This document shows, piece by piece, positions 24,723-62,183 of a stretch of 64,000 nucleotides of DNA. The notes beneath the pieces were generated by a model that was given only the letters and a program-made list of their open reading frames with translations, did no database searches and had not been told where the DNA came from. Source of the stretch: Bradyrhizobium sp. CB1015 (GTDB lineage Bacteria > Pseudomonadota > Alphaproteobacteria > Rhizobiales > Xanthobacteraceae); NCBI RefSeq assembly GCF_025200925.1, contig NZ_CP104174.1:248001-312000 (forward strand). Direction: 5' to 3'. Made by a program: the position numbers and the translations under genes. Within the stretch, counting starts at the first letter, position 1. Each line of letters starts with the position of its first letter.

Positions 24723-24797
<75 letters not shown>

Positions 24798-54019: not shown

Positions 54020-56062
54020 TTAAGGCTCTCGCCACCATGCGCCCCAACTTCGCAGCATCTTGCGCGGGTCGGATGGGTATGACGCGCGCAATGCAGCGAG
54101 TTCGTGAGTGTACTTCGCGACGTCGAGTTGGTCGTGTTGATTGAATCGAGCGCGGAGCTTCGCTTCGATATCGCCGCGCCGTTCAAGCTCGCGAAGACGA
54201 TCCAAATGTTCCACCAACTCCCAACCACTATCGATGGACTTCCAAACCTGATCCTGCAGTGCGCTTAGGAAGGGCATTAGGCCTTGATGTGCTCTGCGTT
54301 GCGCAGTCGGTGTTAAGGTCTTGGAAGATCCGCGCGCCCGAGCGCATTTCACGCCGGCGGCTACCGGCGCCTGCAAACGCCGCGGTATGTTGAGAAGGTC
54401 CGTCAACGGCGCAAAGTCTCCGCGTTCCGATTTGGCCAAGACCGACGGATCAAGGGAGCGGCTGAAGGCGCGGATTGACTGCCAATGAAACCTAGTTTGG
54501 CTCGTGGCATCCGTCCGGAAAGCGAAATGATAGCGTAGGACTTCCCGTCTTTGCTGACGGGCAACAAAGAATTTGCTCGCCCACCGCTGCGCTCTCTTTA
54601 TGAACTGGTACGGCATTGCAATAGCAATTCGCGTGACGAGCCGACCATACTCATCGGTTTCGTGTCGGTATTCCCAATGAAACCGGTCAGGGTCTTGCTC
54701 AGTCCCTATCCACCATTCCGATATCCGCATTCCCAATTGATGCGTGAATTGAGACACCAAATCGGCTCCACTCTCGTGGTCTCCTTGCGCGGTACCATGG
54801 TGATGAACCGTCGTGCGTACGTTGAAAGTCTGGCCGTAGTGCTGCATCAGAAACGATGCTGCGCGCCAATGCGGTTCGATCTTGCTCCAAGGAAGATAAC
54901 CGGCTTGGACCTCGGCACTACCAACACCAATTAGACGCTTTGACCCTTGCTTCTTCTGTTTGATACGGCGAATAGCCGTCGGTTTTCCCAATGCATCATT
55001 GGCCTTGGTGATCACCATCCTTAATTGAGGGTCCGTTATCGAATCTCGCGGCTCATATTTGTCAATCAGCCCCTGCCACAGGGAACCAAGATCCGCCTGC
55101 AACTCAACAGCACGCGATTCCAACAATGTTATGAGGCCAAGACGTGATGCTGCATCAGCGCCGTGCATCAGTAGGTCTCCACTTCGAATCTGCCTAATCT
55201 CGCTGAAGTAGCACTCAACGAGATAGCGGTGCAGCAGCGTCAACTTTCGCGTTGCATTCTCATCCCACGCTTGGATCACATCGATTTGCGCCTGCAGATC
55301 GCCACGACAAAGCGCGTCAAAGAATTCGTCGAGTTGGGACATGACATTGAGACCCAACATGCCCTTAACTGTCGATACGTCGACACGACCGTATGACGCA
55401 CATTTCTGCAGAGCACCAACCATGGACCGGACATGGCCCTTGAGCTCCGCATGAAGAACGATCAGGCCGTCTCGCTCGTACGGGATCTCCTCGGCTGAAC
55501 AGATCCTTGATAGATGTTGGACGGCAGCCTCAACGCCAATCAATTTTGTCTTGAATTCCGTCAGTCGTGAGAAAAGCGGCGGCGAGATGTGCTCTGGATT
55601 TGTCGTCAGTAAAATGAGCGACGATAAATGAGGCGTGTTTTCCGTGACGTTCAGCAACGCCTCGAACGCTTTTTTGGAGAGGCCTGCGACTTCATCGAGG
55701 ACATGCACTCGTTTTCGCGAAAGGAGAGGCGCTGTTTTGATTTGATCCAGCACGTCTCTAATGTCCTCGATTCTCGACCTCTCCCCACAGGGAACATAGT
55801 GGAAGTCGTAGTTGCGCTCTTTGGAGTATGAGGCGCACGCCTCACAGGTTCCGCACCATTCTCCGTCTTTTGGCGAAAGACAAAGCAAGCTGCGCGCATA
55901 AATGAGGCCCAGCGAGGTCTTTCCAGTTCCATGCGGCCCGGAGAGGAGAATAATCGATTGTTTGTCTCGGAAGCTTTGAGACCGAAGTTCGTCGGCTACC
56001 TTTTCTTGGCCCACTACGTCCGCATACCGTTTTGGACGGTACTTCTCAGTAAGATCGATCAT
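54020..56062 (-). CDS. DnaX-like clamp-loader AAA+ ATPase fused to an unrecognised C-terminal region
   Basis: 680 residues. Residues 1-235 are a DNA polymerase III gamma/tau-type AAA+ module: YRPKRYADVVGQE, Walker A GPHGTGKT (42-49), a complete zinc module (Cys61, 70, 73, 76), Walker B VHVLDE (119-124), sensor-1 LLTTNPEH and the SRL arginine finger at 165-167. Residues about 236-360 look like the collar domain. The region after about 390 is not DnaX. It has a strand-helix-strand-helix pattern (NVRTTVHHHG ... RHETDEYGRLVTRIAIAMP) that faintly recalls replication-initiator folds. It is divergent from a clamp-like gene, and the base composition is A/T-richer than the core. Confidence 0.8.
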   Translation of the reverse strand: MIDLTEKYRPKRYADVVGQEKVADELRSQSFRDKQSIILLSGPHGTGKTSLGLIYARSLLCLSPKDGEWCGTCEACASYSKERNYDFHYVPCGERSRIEDIRDVLDQIKTAPLLSRKRVHVLDEVAGLSKKAFEALLNVTENTPHLSSLILLTTNPEHISPPLFSRLTEFKTKLIGVEAAVQHLSRICSAEEIPYERDGLIVLHAELKGHVRSMVGALQKCASYGRVDVSTVKGMLGLNVMSQLDEFFDALCRGDLQAQIDVIQAWDENATRKLTLLHRYLVECYFSEIRQIRSGDLLMHGADAASRLGLITLLESRAVELQADLGSLWQGLIDKYEPRDSITDPQLRMVITKANDALGKPTAIRRIKQKKQGSKRLIGVGSAEVQAGYLPWSKIEPHWRAASFLMQHYGQTFNVRTTVHHHGTAQGDHESGADLVSQFTHQLGMRISEWWIGTEQDPDRFHWEYRHETDEYGRLVTRIAIAMPYQFIKRAQRWASKFFVARQQRREVLRYHFAFRTDATSQTRFHWQSIRAFSRSLDPSVLAKSERGDFAPLTDLLNIPRRLQAPVAAGVKCARARGSSKTLTPTAQRRAHQGLMPFLSALQDQVWKSIDSGWELVEHLDRLRELERRGDIEAKLRARFNQHDQLDVAKYTHELAALRASYPSDPRKMLRSWGAWWREP

Positions 56063-56149
56063 CTGTTATTCGCTTTTGACGGGCAGATTTTTTGGATTTT
56101 GCCAATATGATTCTGCTTTATAGGCTGCGAGCTTGAACTTTCCAGTGCA

Positions 56150-57424
56150 ATGGACGTAGCTGGACTCTATATTCCGGCGGAGCCAATCATGCTAATTTCG
56201 AATGAACTTGGTCCGTCAGATGACGCGGACCTTTCCGACTCTCAACTGTCGATGATTTTCTGGGTCGATCGTGACCCCAACTCGAAATACGAGCCCTTCA
56301 TCAAATTTGACGTCGATGCGCAGTCGTTTGGGCGACTACTCCACACTCTTGATCTCCCGCGCCGTCCCACCAACCAGCTCCATCTCCAAATCCGTCATGG
56401 TCGGTTGACCGCTCGCGTGACGGATGAAACCGGCACGCTATGGCTGGAAGGGTCGATCTCGCTGCTCGACGCTCTGACATCGGACGATCGCGAGTTCGCG
56501 ATCGTGACCGACCGATCTTATTTGACAAAGCTGGGGAAATTGCTTTTGGGTCGTTGGTCCTTTCGACTTGACCGAGCATCCCAAGAACTTAGCTGGACAA
56601 ACGAGGATTACCGGTCTCAATGCAAAGCCGTAGAAACGGCCTTGTTGCCGACATCACTTTTGACGAGGCGACACCGAATTTTTGGCAAGACTCTTAGTAC
56701 TTGCTTACACGATGCGACCGTGCTGCGGCAGCGCCGTATTTCAGATGAGCGAACGTATCATGGCGCACGGATCTGGAATGGCTTTGCGATGGGCGGACAC
56801 ATCCAGGGCCTCTCGCAGATCGCCAGCAATGAGATCCCAAAAGAATTGGACATTGTGGTGCCTCATTCTCAACTGGCTAACGCCATTCACGTTCTGCGAG
56901 CTATGAACGGAGAGGCATGGGTCGACACCCAGAACGGCGCCGTCATGATTGAGAATGCCACCACTAGATTAAAGGGAGGATGGTCTGACTCCGACACAAA
57001 TTTGCCAAGGGAGCTGGCTGGCGCCTTCGATCGGCATGATCCCGTCATCACCTTACACATCAGGTCTGACTTGCTTTGCTCGAAATTTACGCTGCTGGGC
57101 GCCTTCTCGAAAGAGCTTCAGACGGTTCGCTTCGATGTTGAGGCAGACAGCACCGAAGATGCACACGCAAAATTGTCGATCACAGCGGTGTTCGGCGCTC
57201 TTCCCTGGAACATCAAAATTTCTGCGCGGATGGAGCCAACCACGGCTGATTTTGCCGACGCACTGAAAAACCTGCGGTTTAGTGTCAGCGATCTCGATAA
57301 GGCCACGTCAGCTCTGCCCGCGTCTACCGAAGTCAAGCTGCAGTTCAGCGCACGCGCCTTGATGCTTTCGGCCGACCACTCCGGGATCATCAGAAGGACT
57401 CTGCTTGTCCCATCGTCGAGTTGA
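56150..57424 (+). CDS. Putative divergent DNA sliding clamp (DnaN-like)
   Basis: 424 residues with no standard name. Length and strand-rich three-part layout fit a beta clamp. Residues 178-290 resemble DnaN domain 2: a helix LSTCLHDAT, then VVPHSQLANAIHVLR (compare DnaN VIVPRKGVIELMRML), a GAVMIENATTRLKGGW stretch, and NLPREL where DnaN has its FPDYRRVLP loop. The end, SADHSGIIRRTLLVPSSS, is like the DnaN C-terminus. The neighbouring clamp-loader gene supports this. The start is ATG 56150, and ATG 56189 has a better ribosome site (GGAG). It is an inference, not a motif-proven call. Confidence 0.5.
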   Translation: MDVAGLYIPAEPIMLISNELGPSDDADLSDSQLSMIFWVDRDPNSKYEPFIKFDVDAQSFGRLLHTLDLPRRPTNQLHLQIRHGRLTARVTDETGTLWLEGSISLLDALTSDDREFAIVTDRSYLTKLGKLLLGRWSFRLDRASQELSWTNEDYRSQCKAVETALLPTSLLTRRHRIFGKTLSTCLHDATVLRQRRISDERTYHGARIWNGFAMGGHIQGLSQIASNEIPKELDIVVPHSQLANAIHVLRAMNGEAWVDTQNGAVMIENATTRLKGGWSDSDTNLPRELAGAFDRHDPVITLHIRSDLLCSKFTLLGAFSKELQTVRFDVEADSTEDAHAKLSITAVFGALPWNIKISARMEPTTADFADALKNLRFSVSDLDKATSALPASTEVKLQFSARALMLSADHSGIIRRTLLVPSSS

Positions 57425-58103: not shown

Positions 58104-58415
58104 ATGGCAACGGACACCCCTTATGAAACACTGCTCGCCATGAAGCGGCTGAAAGCTGAAGGTATCTGGTACAAAAAGCTTACGCCCTTCCACCTCAAAG
58201 TCGATCGCTACAATTTTTGGCCAAAGCGTGGGACAATTCATATCGACGGAGAAACATCGCCTGTTCCCCAGCGCGGCCTGGAAAAGTTTGTTAGGCTCAT
58301 AAAGACGGATGCGGTTGTCATGGATCGCCTCCGCCACAACGCTGATGAGTTGCGCCCAAAAGCACACATCGATACAGATGTCGAAGCAGTTTCGATTAAG
58401 CTGTCTGAAGCTTGA
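58104..58415 (+). CDS. Hypothetical protein, 103 residues
   Basis: Starts MATDTPYETLLAMKRLKAEG and continues IWYKKLTPFHLKVDRYNFWP, ending VEAVSIKLSEA. It is basic in the middle, with aromatic clusters. There is no family I recognise. A strong GGAG site 8 nt before ATG and a long leader support expression. The next gene (nuclease) begins 240 nt later on the same strand. Confidence 0.6.
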   Translation: MATDTPYETLLAMKRLKAEGIWYKKLTPFHLKVDRYNFWPKRGTIHIDGETSPVPQRGLEKFVRLIKTDAVVMDRLRHNADELRPKAHIDTDVEAVSIKLSEA

Positions 58416-58656: not shown

Positions 58657-59820
58657 ATGACCGCCATCACGTATACCAAGTTCACTTCTTTGCCGCGCGT
58701 ACCACTCGTCCCGGACGAAATCGTCCGCCGTAACAACGTATTCTTCGAAATCGACACGCGCTTCCGCCGCGCCGCTCGCCTTCTTCAATGCCTGTGGCTG
58801 AGAGATCGCGAGATCCCCACCGGTCAGCACGTTCGCGGCGATGGCGACGACGCCGTCACCATGGAGCTTCATTCATACCTCAGCCGTGACGCTGCGCGTG
58901 CCGGGCGGAATTTCCTCTCGCCAGAAATCCATGCCCTCGTTCGTCGCGAGTTGCTGATGCGGGAGGAAGGCGCCGCCATCGACGAAGATCGACTGTTTGG
59001 CAACGCCCTCAGCTCCATGCCGCTGACCTTTAACCTGTTTGGGCCGATGGCCCTCGACCTCAAGCTTGCCACAGCCGCCCTGCGTCAGCTGCTGCCAGGC
59101 TTCGTTCATGAGGTGACAGGTTTCATCTTCGAGCACTCACCCGGCCGTCGCCAAGAACGTTTTCTCAATGACGGCACTGCCTTCGATCTCGCCATCCGCG
59201 TCATCACGCCTGAGCGTGAAGATGGGACTATCTTCGTCGAGACAAAATATTCCGAAGACATGAGCGGACCCGCGGCTAGGCTCCGGGATCGCTACGACGA
59301 AGTTTGCCGCTCCGTCGGTCTCTTCGTCGACCCGGACAGCCCGACGCTCCGTTCGTTGGCGCTGGAGCAGCTTTGGCGTGAGCATATGCTAGCCCAACTG
59401 ACCGTCGACCAAGGCCTCACGCCCCGGGCCATGTTCATTGCCATCGGCCCTCGGCTCAATCGCAGGGTCATGGCCGCCTTTCGAGTCTACGAAAACGAAC
59501 TGATCGATGCCGACGACCAAGACGCCAACCGTGTCGCATTCCAAGCTTTCACACTGGAACGCTTCATCGACGCCCTTGCCGAGTCCGGCGCCGATGGCCT
59601 CGCTCGCGATCTGTGGGGTCGCTACTGCGACTTCGAGCGTGTCTATCACCTCGCCTTGGGCGAATACCTCGAACAGCCCTCCGGCCAAGCCATCGCAGCG
59701 CCGCTTACCGCGCCTTCATCGAAAGACGTCGACGCCTCACCTCAAAAGGTCACGACGAGAGCGACGGACAAGCGCGCAACGAAAAGCAGGGCTCAAAAGG
59801 CCGCGGGAGGGTCCCAGTGA
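58657..59820 (+). CDS. PD-(D/E)XK nuclease, PGN_0703-like putative restriction endonuclease
   Basis: 387 residues. An N-terminal region with FLSPEIHALVRRELL and SSMPLTFNLFGPMALDLKLA precedes a restriction-like nuclease core: Glu159 in FEHSPGR, Asp177 in TAFDLAIRV and Glu195-x-Lys197 in TIFVETKYSE. The C-terminal 40 residues are Thr/Lys/Arg-rich and likely disordered. GGAG lies before ATG 58657. The stop overlaps the DUF2958 GTG (GTGA), so the two are co-translated. No methyltransferase partner is seen nearby. The target and role are unknown. Confidence 0.75.
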   Translation: MTAITYTKFTSLPRVPLVPDEIVRRNNVFFEIDTRFRRAARLLQCLWLRDREIPTGQHVRGDGDDAVTMELHSYLSRDAARAGRNFLSPEIHALVRRELLMREEGAAIDEDRLFGNALSSMPLTFNLFGPMALDLKLATAALRQLLPGFVHEVTGFIFEHSPGRRQERFLNDGTAFDLAIRVITPEREDGTIFVETKYSEDMSGPAARLRDRYDEVCRSVGLFVDPDSPTLRSLALEQLWREHMLAQLTVDQGLTPRAMFIAIGPRLNRRVMAAFRVYENELIDADDQDANRVAFQAFTLERFIDALAESGADGLARDLWGRYCDFERVYHLALGEYLEQPSGQAIAAPLTAPSSKDVDASPQKVTTRATDKRATKSRAQKAAGGSQ

Positions 59821-60158
59821 AGACGGGCTCCCTGCTGACAGTCTCCGACCGCGTCGAGCTTCTCGTGAACGCTCTTCATCCGGACACCGATCACTTGCCT
59901 GTGGTGAAGCTATTTACGCCAGATGGCGGCGCGACATGGCTTCTCACCGAATGCGATCCGGATGAACCGGATCTGCTGTTCGGTCTCTGCGATCTCGGCC
60001 TTGGCTGTCCCGAGCTCGGCTACGTCAGCCTTGCGGAAATCATGGAGGTCCGAGGTCGCCTCGGACTTCCGGTCGAGCGAGACCTTCATTTCGTCGCGGA
60101 CAAGCCACTCTCAGCTTATGCCGACGAAGCGCGGGCCAAGGGACGGATCGTGACCTGA
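59817..60158 (+). CDS. DUF2958 domain protein
   Basis: 113 residues. The diagnostic core is VKLFTPDGGATWLLTECDPD followed by LFGLCDLGLGCPELGYVSLA and LPVERDLHF. Family function is unknown. Such genes are typical cargo of conjugative plasmids and integrative elements in proteobacteria, which supports mobile origin of this region. GTG 59817 overlaps the nuclease stop. A longer in-frame start at 59613 is inside the nuclease gene and is rejected. Confidence 0.9.
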   Translation: MKTGSLLTVSDRVELLVNALHPDTDHLPVVKLFTPDGGATWLLTECDPDEPDLLFGLCDLGLGCPELGYVSLAEIMEVRGRLGLPVERDLHFVADKPLSAYADEARAKGRIVT

Positions 60159-60613: not shown

Positions 60614-61027
60614 ATGAAAACTATCCTCTCAATAGCCCCCGTCGTTACCCTTGCCTCTCTGCTTGCGGGCTGCGGCAAGTCAGAGGTTTGCAGCGACCCA
60701 GACGTGCTGGCAACCGTTAAGCAACTGTTCGAGGAGCAGGAGTTCGGAAAGTTCTATAAGATGCCGCCCGGCATCGTTCTTGTGAGAGATAAGTCGGCAA
60801 CCCACCTGTCGACGGATCCGAACAACCAGATCGCTCGATGCTCAGTTATTATCACGATCGACCTCTTCGAGATGCTCAAGAAGGTCCAGGGATACTCGGA
60901 TGAGCAGATCGCGGCGGTGAGAGTGAAAGCACAAAGCACGGGGCAGAATGCGGCCCCAGACTCTCTCATCAACTATTCGGTTCAGTCCATGGCGTCGGGA
61001 GAGTACTATGTCATGATGCTACCATAG
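60614..61027 (+). CDS. Hypothetical lipoprotein, 137 residues
   Basis: A lipoprotein signal MKTILSIAPVVTLASLLAGC with lipobox LAGC (Cys20), then a soluble domain of about 117 residues with two more cysteines (SEVCSDPD, ARCSVIIT). Likely membrane-tethered in the periplasm. No family is recognised. It stands alone after a strong terminator and is followed by a 136-nt gap. Confidence 0.7.
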   Translation: MKTILSIAPVVTLASLLAGCGKSEVCSDPDVLATVKQLFEEQEFGKFYKMPPGIVLVRDKSATHLSTDPNNQIARCSVIITIDLFEMLKKVQGYSDEQIAAVRVKAQSTGQNAAPDSLINYSVQSMASGEYYVMMLP

Positions 61028-61163
61028 GGAAAATTAGCCTGGATCAGACGCTGTTCTCGCACGTTTCCGGCGTCCGGCGGTCATTACCGCGAGCTGACCG
61101 AGATGCTCCTTCATCAATAGCAACGCACGCCGCACGGTCATAGCTGACGAGACCAGTGGGAGC

Positions 61164-62183
61164 ATGAGAATGGACTGGTTCACGCGCATCACCGGCTTCA
61201 ATGAAAGCACGTACGCCGCTACACGCGCGCAGCTTGAGGTGCACGGCAGTACTCTCCGCTCCAAGGCCAACGGCTGCAGCTATGGAATCGGCGAGTTCGA
61301 GCTGGCATCGCTCGACGACCTGCGCGCCCGAGTAGCCGGTGGCACCGGCGCCGCAGGCCAGGCTCGCGTGCGGATCGTTACCGGCGACGTGCGCAAGATG
61401 CACCAGGTGCCCGAGTATGCAGGTGCGCTGTTCCAAGTTGCCAGCCAGTTCAATTCTCTGGAGATGATCAGCCCCAGCGTGACGCCCGAGGATGGCGTCA
61501 CGCGCTACGAGCACGACCGCACGCAGGGCCCGGCGTGCGCCGTGGCAGCGGGCGCGGCGACGATCTACCGCAACTACTTTGCGCCCGTGGGCGACCAGAT
61601 CGGCCAGACGGTACAGCGCCAACTTGACGGCCTTGCGGATGTCGGCGCCGAGTTGAGCGCCCAATTGGTCCGACCCGTCACCGATCTCTGGGAGTGGCGC
61701 AATGGCTATGCTCTCTGCACGCGCCAGGGCCTGGACCTGATCACGGATCATCTGCGAGGCATGGGCCCCAGACTGGCTGATGCGCTTGCCGGCAAGCTGC
61801 GCATCGGCATTCATCGCGACGTCGAGGTGACGGATGCGCCGAGCGCACCAAGGCCTGTAGTGAGCCAGGCTTTCTGCTCAGCGTTGCCCGTCGCGTACGG
61901 CAGTGTGCCGCAGCAACACTGGGCAGCATTCGCACAGTTGGTGCTCGATGCCGCCTATGAGGCAACGATGCTTGAGGCAGTGATCAACTGCCGGCGCGGG
62001 GCATCGAACATTCTGTTGCTCACATTCCTTGGCGGCGGGGCGTTCGGCAACGCGCCCGAGTGGATTCATGCTGCCATCAAGCGCGCCGTGATCAAAATAC
62101 AGGGCTTCGACCTGGATGTGCGGCTGATAAGCTATGGCGAGCCATCGGTTCAGACACGCGAGCTGGTGAAGGAACTGGCTTAG
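61164..62183 (+). CDS. Uncharacterised protein with macrodomain-like features
   Basis: 339 residues. Conserved-looking blocks are LFQVASQFNSLEM, GVTRYEHDRTQGPACAVAAG then AATIYRNYF, and a late TFLGGGAFGNAPEWIHAAI. The N/Q-rich first block, the GPACA loop and the GGGxFGN loop recall ADP-ribose-binding macrodomain/PARG proteins. If so, it may bind or remove ADP-ribose. GGGAG precedes ATG 61164, and ATG 61170 is an alternative. The gene is more GC-rich than its neighbours. The function is inferred only. Confidence 0.6.
   Translation: MRMDWFTRITGFNESTYAATRAQLEVHGSTLRSKANGCSYGIGEFELASLDDLRARVAGGTGAAGQARVRIVTGDVRKMHQVPEYAGALFQVASQFNSLEMISPSVTPEDGVTRYEHDRTQGPACAVAAGAATIYRNYFAPVGDQIGQTVQRQLDGLADVGAELSAQLVRPVTDLWEWRNGYALCTRQGLDLITDHLRGMGPRLADALAGKLRIGIHRDVEVTDAPSAPRPVVSQAFCSALPVAYGSVPQQHWAAFAQLVLDAAYEATMLEAVINCRRGASNILLLTFLGGGAFGNAPEWIHAAIKRAVIKIQGFDLDVRLISYGEPSVQTRELVKELA

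Follow-up and report, generated by a model that had tools for sequence, protein, structure and literature searches.

Plasmid RK2 provides a described parallel for an origin-bound initiator that engages a sliding clamp: in one study the complex that TrfA forms with the beta clamp is presented as key to oriV-dependent replication in vitro, and the cooperation of Rep proteins with the clamp loader at a plasmid origin is posed as a question (PMC4980987). Here we describe a divergent gene pair, A and B, in a stretch of 64,000 nucleotides (the window) from Bradyrhizobium sp. CB1015 (NZ_CP104174.1, positions 248,001 to 312,000), the genome of which is a single contig of 8.41 Mb. Gene A encodes a DnaX-type clamp-loader ATPase fused to a domain derived from a rolling-circle Rep protein, and gene B encodes a predicted sliding clamp. 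We are highly confident of the computed anatomy, that is, the fold of B, the domains of A, the loss of the catalytic motifs, the grouping of the A proteins, the adjacency of A and B, and the backbone shared with sister loci. That the two genes serve as the replication module of an integrative element of Bradyrhizobium, or of a resident remnant of such an element, in which the dead Rep domain tethers the loader, we consider slightly better than an even chance. A literature search, with most subscription journals outside its coverage, returned no description of such a pair.

The sequence-only reading, made from the letters of the window, had singled out 54020..57424 as a divergent pair of a DnaX-type and a clamp-like gene. 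This was confirmed, both frames being open with their listed starts 87 bp apart. The A/T-rich composition it had remarked upon is also real: the GC content is 0.54 in each gene and 0.41 in the gap, compared to 0.64 for the whole window. The pair is made up as follows.

54020..56062, minus strand: gene A, 680 residues, AAA+ DnaX-type ATPase with an HUH Rep-derived domain (open reading frame, Pfam, PDB, hhalign).
54953..56062, minus strand: residues 1-370 of A, the AAA+ clamp-loader part, its boundary at residue 370 being an estimate (motif blocks of 26 A proteins, alignment).
54203..54910, minus strand: residues 385-620 of A, the HUH Rep-derived domain with the HxH and YxxK motifs lost (hhalign, motif table).
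56063..56149, no strand: divergent intergenic gap between A and B, 87 bp, GC content 0.41.
56150..57424, plus strand: gene B, 424 residues, predicted DnaN-type sliding clamp (AlphaFold, Foldseek, VIA-align).
56297..57421, plus strand: residues 50-424 of B, three predicted clamp domains (secondary structure of the model).

The 424-residue product of B had been taken for a very distant DnaN, and structure prediction of 56150-57424 upheld this. The AlphaFold model (predicted local distance difference test, pLDDT, 72.4; predicted template modelling score, pTM, 0.72) displays a predicted three-domain, six-unit clamp fold, the units of which start at residues 50, 117, 175, 234, 300, and 376. Residues 50-423 of the model align structurally with residues 1-361 of the Deinococcus radiodurans beta clamp (VIA-align), and a Foldseek search returned DnaN matches as well as phage clamps; in the structure-comparison rows the sequence identity between B and DnaN is 9-16%. 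On the strength of the model, B is predicted to be a DnaN-type sliding clamp. A first fold computed from three sequences was poor (pLDDT 36), and its structural-search rows were still clamps or clamp complexes by title, with one title unclear. Residues 1-45 are of low confidence in the model and the database copy of B starts 13 codons in; translation may in fact begin at codon 14 or 35.

At the sequence level, the B profile matched host-type DnaN with P 0.0022, colinear over 213 columns, where the lowest unrelated control for the same profile gave 0.11; earlier, smaller B alignments gave weaker values (P 0.016 and 0.056). B departs from the DnaN beta clamp in having no DnaN Pfam match, in ending with TLLVPSSS where inspection of host DnaN finds VLMPMRV (positions which we take to be client pocket residues), and in lying divergent from a loader gene; the presumed host dnaN is found at 2424, away from B. 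PDB profile searches with B gave two matches and one match, of the kind expected by chance. Two simpler identities were rejected, namely a protein unrelated to clamps, by the predicted fold, and a recent copy of host DnaN, since a search of its own genome with B finds only B at expectation values up to 10. The named relatives of B are from Bradyrhizobium. A relative of B, P0002, is 52% identical across nearly the whole protein. A second accessory DnaN-like clamp, recognizable by Pfam, is present in the same genome at about 2.52 Mb (L134:5820-6926); genes for a Prim-Pol and a helicase come immediately after it, an HNH/EVE protein and a resolvase are encoded in the vicinity, and the whole is another replication-like module of this strain. 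A regular expression for clamp-binding motifs matched none of the scanned window proteins and matched once in a protein of locus L038.

Gene A matches the Pfam family DNA_pol3_delta2 (2.3e-20), E. coli gamma over residues 4-254 (PDB gamma/tau, 8.9e-34), and a PHROG clamp-loader family over residues 3-237 (3.7e-43). The motif blocks and the alignment bear out the intact motifs that had been claimed for it, including the arginine finger: like DnaX gamma/tau, the window protein possesses Walker A (residues 42-49), a zinc module (Cys61, Cys70, Cys73, and Cys76), Walker B (D123 and E124), and the SRC arginine (SRL, 165-167). Unlike DnaX gamma/tau, it does not reach the cut-off for domain III (PF12169; 12.7 vs 24.4 bits) and carries a C-terminal HUH-derived domain. 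The possibility that A is the housekeeping DnaX or HolB was rejected; the presumed copies of these are at 944605 and 4923223. Relatives P0005-P0008 are 56-58% identical to A across nearly the whole protein.

The fusion to an HUH domain devoid of its catalytic motifs had been absent from the sequence-only reading, and it is the main clue to function. The C-terminal 300 residues of A match no Pfam family, Rep family included. A profile of 26 A C-termini was compared with HUH proteins; these 26 comprise the proteins of 16 of the 17 A loci described below (L044, in two frames, was left out) and 10 database proteins, with P0004 (the window protein itself), P0006, and P0013 left out of the set. Against five HUH Rep-like proteins the profile gave an hhalign P of 2.4e-9 over 183 columns, the controls being 0.28 or worse, and against eight stand-alone Rep relatives a P of 9e-32 over 230 columns. 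One of the eight has a Pfam REP_ORF2-G2P match of 9.5e-6, just under the curated cut-off, and the same protein matches the PHROG family "rolling circle DNA replication initiation" (8e-4). The homology is weakened by the first four REP_ORF2-G2P hits, among which only L087 matched the A C-terminus (P 3.6e-4), while L085, L086, and L088 did not (P 0.38, 0.64, and 0.042); L087 is itself under the family cut-off, and the other four proteins of the five-protein comparison were found via L087. A resembles HUH rolling-circle Reps of the REP_ORF2-G2P type in profile homology over 183-230 columns, and differs from them in its fusion to an AAA+ loader and in its motifs. In a joint alignment the HxH motif (H-[ST]-H) is present in 8/8 stand-alone Reps and 0/26 A proteins, and the same counts hold for YxxK; from other HUH enzymes we take these to be the metal site and the catalytic tyrosine, respectively. 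With both motifs lost, A was rejected as an active relaxase or Rep.

Retention of a Rep fold without catalytic residues would also suit a shut-off factor, in which A vies for origin hairpins with the active Reps that related elements encode, so that replication of those elements is blocked or redirected, B acting as a roadblock. We regard this as very unlikely, an intact ATPase and a conserved clamp being in excess of the needs of a decoy.

The stand-alone Reps (L043, L045, L047, L096, L098, L099, L102, and L103) were found by profile. Seven of them, all except L096, finish with a short tail whose last residue is isoleucine and whose third-last is hydrophobic (for instance LQI, VTI, and VKI). 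Upstream of the Reps of L096 (9542-9564) and L099 (8868-8890) lies a conserved hairpin, the outermost pair of which has changed on both sides; it is a candidate nicking origin, seen in these two sequences.

Of 392 genomes searched with the A C-terminal profile, 19 match: 18 belong to the genus of the window, counting the home genome, and the other to a different family within the order. When 385 genomes sampled evenly across the class were searched, the home genome alone matched. A plasmid collection contained no match to two A C-termini, and Rep homologues occur on plasmids in one record. Among named genome contigs, A has a counterpart only in strain dw_411, apart from one 183-residue AAA+ match, and B has no relative; a search of viral contigs made with B likewise found none.

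The matching genomes hold 20 loci, two of them in the home genome, of which 17 carry A and three a stand-alone Rep (L043, L045, and L047). In type I (the window, L030, and L031) A stands with divergent B; the adjacency of the two genes is seen in three genomes, as the sequence-only reading required, and together with the fold it supports the notion of a private clamp and loader-type ATPase in an accessory region. Type II (L006, L032, L033, and L034) has A, D, and a DNA_pol3_delta2-type gene, C, in one direction. Type III (L037, L038, L039, L041, L042, L044, and L046) has a VapE-like gene just upstream of A, followed by A and a D-C fusion; Pfam identified VapE in the two of these seven loci on which it was run (L037 and L041). 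Type IV (L035 and L040) has A and two divergent genes, c35 and d388, and at L036 A is accompanied by the D-C fusion, whose N-terminal part is a homologue of D (P 1.6e-27). In comparisons with B profiles c35 gives P 0.0027 and 0.026 and d388 P 0.06, 0.0063, and 0.044, the value varying with the B alignment; against host DnaN the two give P 0.15 and 0.047, and against each other 3e-5. Because unrelated pairs reached P 0.019 in such comparisons, c35 and d388 were set aside as unproven clamps.

Several of these loci have further features of their own. A strong inverted repeat is found at L041 upstream of the operon of the VapE-like gene (score 22; shuffle maximum 8), and short tandem repeats well over shuffles occur upstream of A in L036 and of the VapE-like gene in L046 (G/A-rich; 9-bp unit). 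Beside type IV locus L035 there is a 2360-residue RHS/FG-GAP repeat protein that has Pfam matches to SpvB and TcdB-mid (L035:11624-18706).

Phylogenetic analysis sets the A proteins apart. In a tree of the HUH part, rooted by midpoint, a branch (support 96/93) separates the 26 A proteins from the stand-alone Reps. One half of the A group (15 rows, 95/93) has B or the unproven c35-d388 pair as neighbors at 5/5 loci with known context, and the other (11 rows, 94/90) has D and C genes at 11/11. The tree built from the AAA+ part separates 25 of the 26 A rows and all 12 C rows from housekeeping DnaX (97/90); P0018 is the exception, and long branches make this tree unsure. Read plainly, these sequence relationships would imply a single fusion, loss of the nicking residues, and then the acquisition of differing partner sets.

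Downstream of B the window continues with genes that recur at the sister loci.

58104..58415, plus strand: 103-residue protein with relatives at several sister loci and no Pfam family matched (clusters, profile).
58657..59820, plus strand: PDDEXK_13 nuclease-family protein (Pfam 9.8e-101).
59832..60158, plus strand: DUF2958 protein, the domain part of listed open reading frame 59613-60158 (Pfam 6.5e-40).
60614..62183, plus strand: two genes of 137 and 339 residues (clusters c24 and c12), in an order common to the second island of the genome.

The nuclease, DUF2958, and the two further genes follow the order of that second island, and the DUF2958 gene adjoins the nuclease gene at several sister loci. 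A PDDEXK_13 gene is carried by 32 of 262 genus genomes, including 18/18 of those that match the A C-terminal profile (15 with A, three with a stand-alone Rep); with the first 233 genomes taken as the genus set, the Fisher p for this co-occurrence is 2.7e-19. Sixteen of the 17 A loci have the nuclease gene in divergent orientation to A; the contig of L039 ends within it, and L046 is on a contig of only 9 kb, with the nuclease gene on another contig. Fourteen genus genomes have the nuclease and no A-profile match. The eight strongest were inspected, two of which (G400 and G419) apparently lay outside the 392-genome search for A: in five, a stand-alone Rep gene and the nuclease gene are divergent (L096, L098, L099, L102, and L103), and in three (L097, L100, and L101) no stand-alone Rep was found by profile. 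The eight stand-alone Reps with intact motifs thus occupy the same position as A, divergent from the same nuclease family.

The sequence-only reading had suggested a replication-associated or anti-phage system, and a search for neighboring nucleases and defence genes does return the PDDEXK_13 nuclease as a regular neighbor and a GajA-like gene near sister locus L099. Defence is the main rival to replication: the dead HUH domain would recognize the rolling-circle hairpins or junctions of plasmids and phages that invade the cell, the loader would place B at these sites, and B would direct cutting by the nuclease. The constancy of the nuclease among genomes matching the A profile is congruent with this, as are the codirectional arrangement of B and the nuclease at 3/3 loci, the variation of partner genes around a fixed core, and the defence genes near sister loci. 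The PADLOC matches of A are nevertheless weak (IetA, 3.4e-4 over 48 residues; mad8, 0.041), with none for B or the nuclease, so that the anti-phage half of the suggestion gained no direct support. Moreover, because the same nuclease family also accompanies intact stand-alone Reps, it looks like part of the element backbone and not of an A-B system. We consider the defence explanation unlikely.

Close to the stand-alone Reps there are a GajA-like gene (L099:2193-4031, PADLOC), genes with DUF499, DUF3780, and DUF1156 (L096:11485-18458, Pfam and PADLOC), and genes with DUF499 and DUF1156 (L099:10750-18001, Pfam). These are likely defence cargo, putatively belonging to the elements.

Integrases of one family are found near A loci L006, L032, and L046, near Rep loci L043, L047, L096, L098, and L102, and near L097, the Pfam assignment having been run on the L006 copy. 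The order of integrase, Rep or A operon, and divergent nuclease is the same in L006, L032, L043, L047, L096, L098, and L102. No convincing attachment (att) repeat was found in L006; tRNA-Ser genes are present at L043 and L102, and a tRNA-Ala gene at 24723 of the window.

Three A loci (L031, L034, and L040) are close to a Ku gene, and two of these also to a gene of the IMS-polymerase cluster (Pfam on the L031 copies), a proximity which points to a common region of insertion. About 10 kb past the right end of the window, the home genome also has a Ku gene (L048:10373-11551); likewise to the right is a 1070-residue protein with SAM, adenylate/guanylate cyclase, and AAA_16 domains (L048:2896-6108). 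The Ku and IMS neighborhood of the three A loci, and the presence of a dedicated clamp and loader separate from the genes of the replisome, would fit a clamp for repair or checkpoint functions, comparable to 9-1-1 with Rad17-RFC, which A would load at damaged or stalled host DNA. The Ku and IMS genes are not part of the shared backbone and occur at fewer than half of the loci, the distribution is patchy (19/392 genomes match the profile), and the Rep-derived domain points to element DNA; to this explanation we give little credence.

The replication reading gains support because A ends in a Rep-derived domain and sister loci have a stand-alone Rep in the same place, and because some sister loci carry an integrase or a VapE-like gene; the replication half of the earlier suggestion is thereby strengthened. 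Under it, a DnaX-type clamp-loader ATPase would have joined an ancestral rolling-circle Rep, which would also have lost the residues for nicking. This inactive HUH domain may bind the origin of the element, or a hairpin or junction there, and so hold the loader in place. The ATPase part would open B and close it on element DNA, where B could recruit a polymerase or another client; because no recognizable delta or delta-prime is encoded at the locus, those subunits would probably come from the host. Origin binding, the loading of B by A, the use of host subunits, and replication as the purpose are the parts that we infer. A broader proposal, which we advance tentatively and rate at somewhat under an even chance, is that of a non-nicking initiator: Reps would have been turned into origin-tethered clamp loaders, replication would start by targeted clamp loading and not by strand cutting, and in sister elements other loader genes, or a VapE-like gene, would take the place of the clamp.

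A number of observations weigh against replication by this pair. In the type IV A proteins (L035 and L040) the Walker B glutamate and the SRC arginine are lost, with the P-loop kept, and loading may therefore not be general. Clamp-type genes are present at 5/17 A loci, B at three and the unproven pair at two, the clamp fold having been predicted for the window copy of B alone, and that copy shares only 18-19% identity with its counterparts at L030 and L031. Beside A in the window no recognizable delta or delta-prime gene was seen. The identification of D of types II and III as HolA delta was not supported (hhalign P 0.78 and 0.42; PDB search empty), where A itself gave 7.8e-6 with the same HolA profile. 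As to the gap, which had been put forward as a shared promoter region, its 87 bp and divergent setting stand; no promoter-like site was found in it, nor any repeat or hairpin beyond shuffle level. The A-B gaps of L030 and L031 contain a related hairpin, clear over shuffles in L031 and barely so in L030; it rests on these two sequences and is not present in the window gap.

Finally, a search for integrases of the sister family gave none in the window or the adjoining 20 kb on the right, and the window copy may therefore be immobile. The same absence would fit a non-functional relic, the degenerating genes of an old element, as would the sister A gene split into two frames at L044 and the shortening of a close B relative (P0003) to 280 residues. 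Against decay, both window frames are open with motifs and predicted fold kept, and the relatives of A (P0005-P0008) and B (P0002) cover nearly the whole proteins; we judge a relic the least probable of these explanations.

Should the replication module be real, it would represent a cellular mobile element with its own clamp, and with origin recognition and clamp loader in one polypeptide, hinting that mobile DNA can initiate its own copying by a new route. It suggests how a nicking enzyme may lose its catalytic residues yet persist as a targeting domain, and the intact Rep relatives in the same position of sister elements are ready controls. B would add a clamp family missed by sequence searches. 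The question of Rep and clamp-loader cooperation, as it is put in the RK2 study (PMC4980987), would become directly testable through a natural fusion with its own clamp.

Clamp-loader paralogues beside a housekeeping copy, as A would be, are described in environmental clusters; by comparison these are AAA+ subunits in ocean data, and the accessible part of that report mentions neither a Rep fusion nor a cognate clamp (PMC12153180). Phages with clamps and loaders likewise exemplify an element with its own clamp, and phage clamps are among the Foldseek matches of B as PHROG clamp-loader families are among those of A; they differ in that the phage collection holds no match to the C-terminus of window A. 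RK2 TrfA resembles the proposed role of A by analogy, as an origin-bound initiator engaging a clamp (PMC4980987). Unlike A, TrfA relies on the clamp and loader of the host and binds iterons, whereas A carries a loader part and is accompanied by its own clamp, and there is no family relation between the two. The A/B pair is a variant of known machinery, and it bears on the cooperation of Rep proteins and clamp loaders at plasmid origins.

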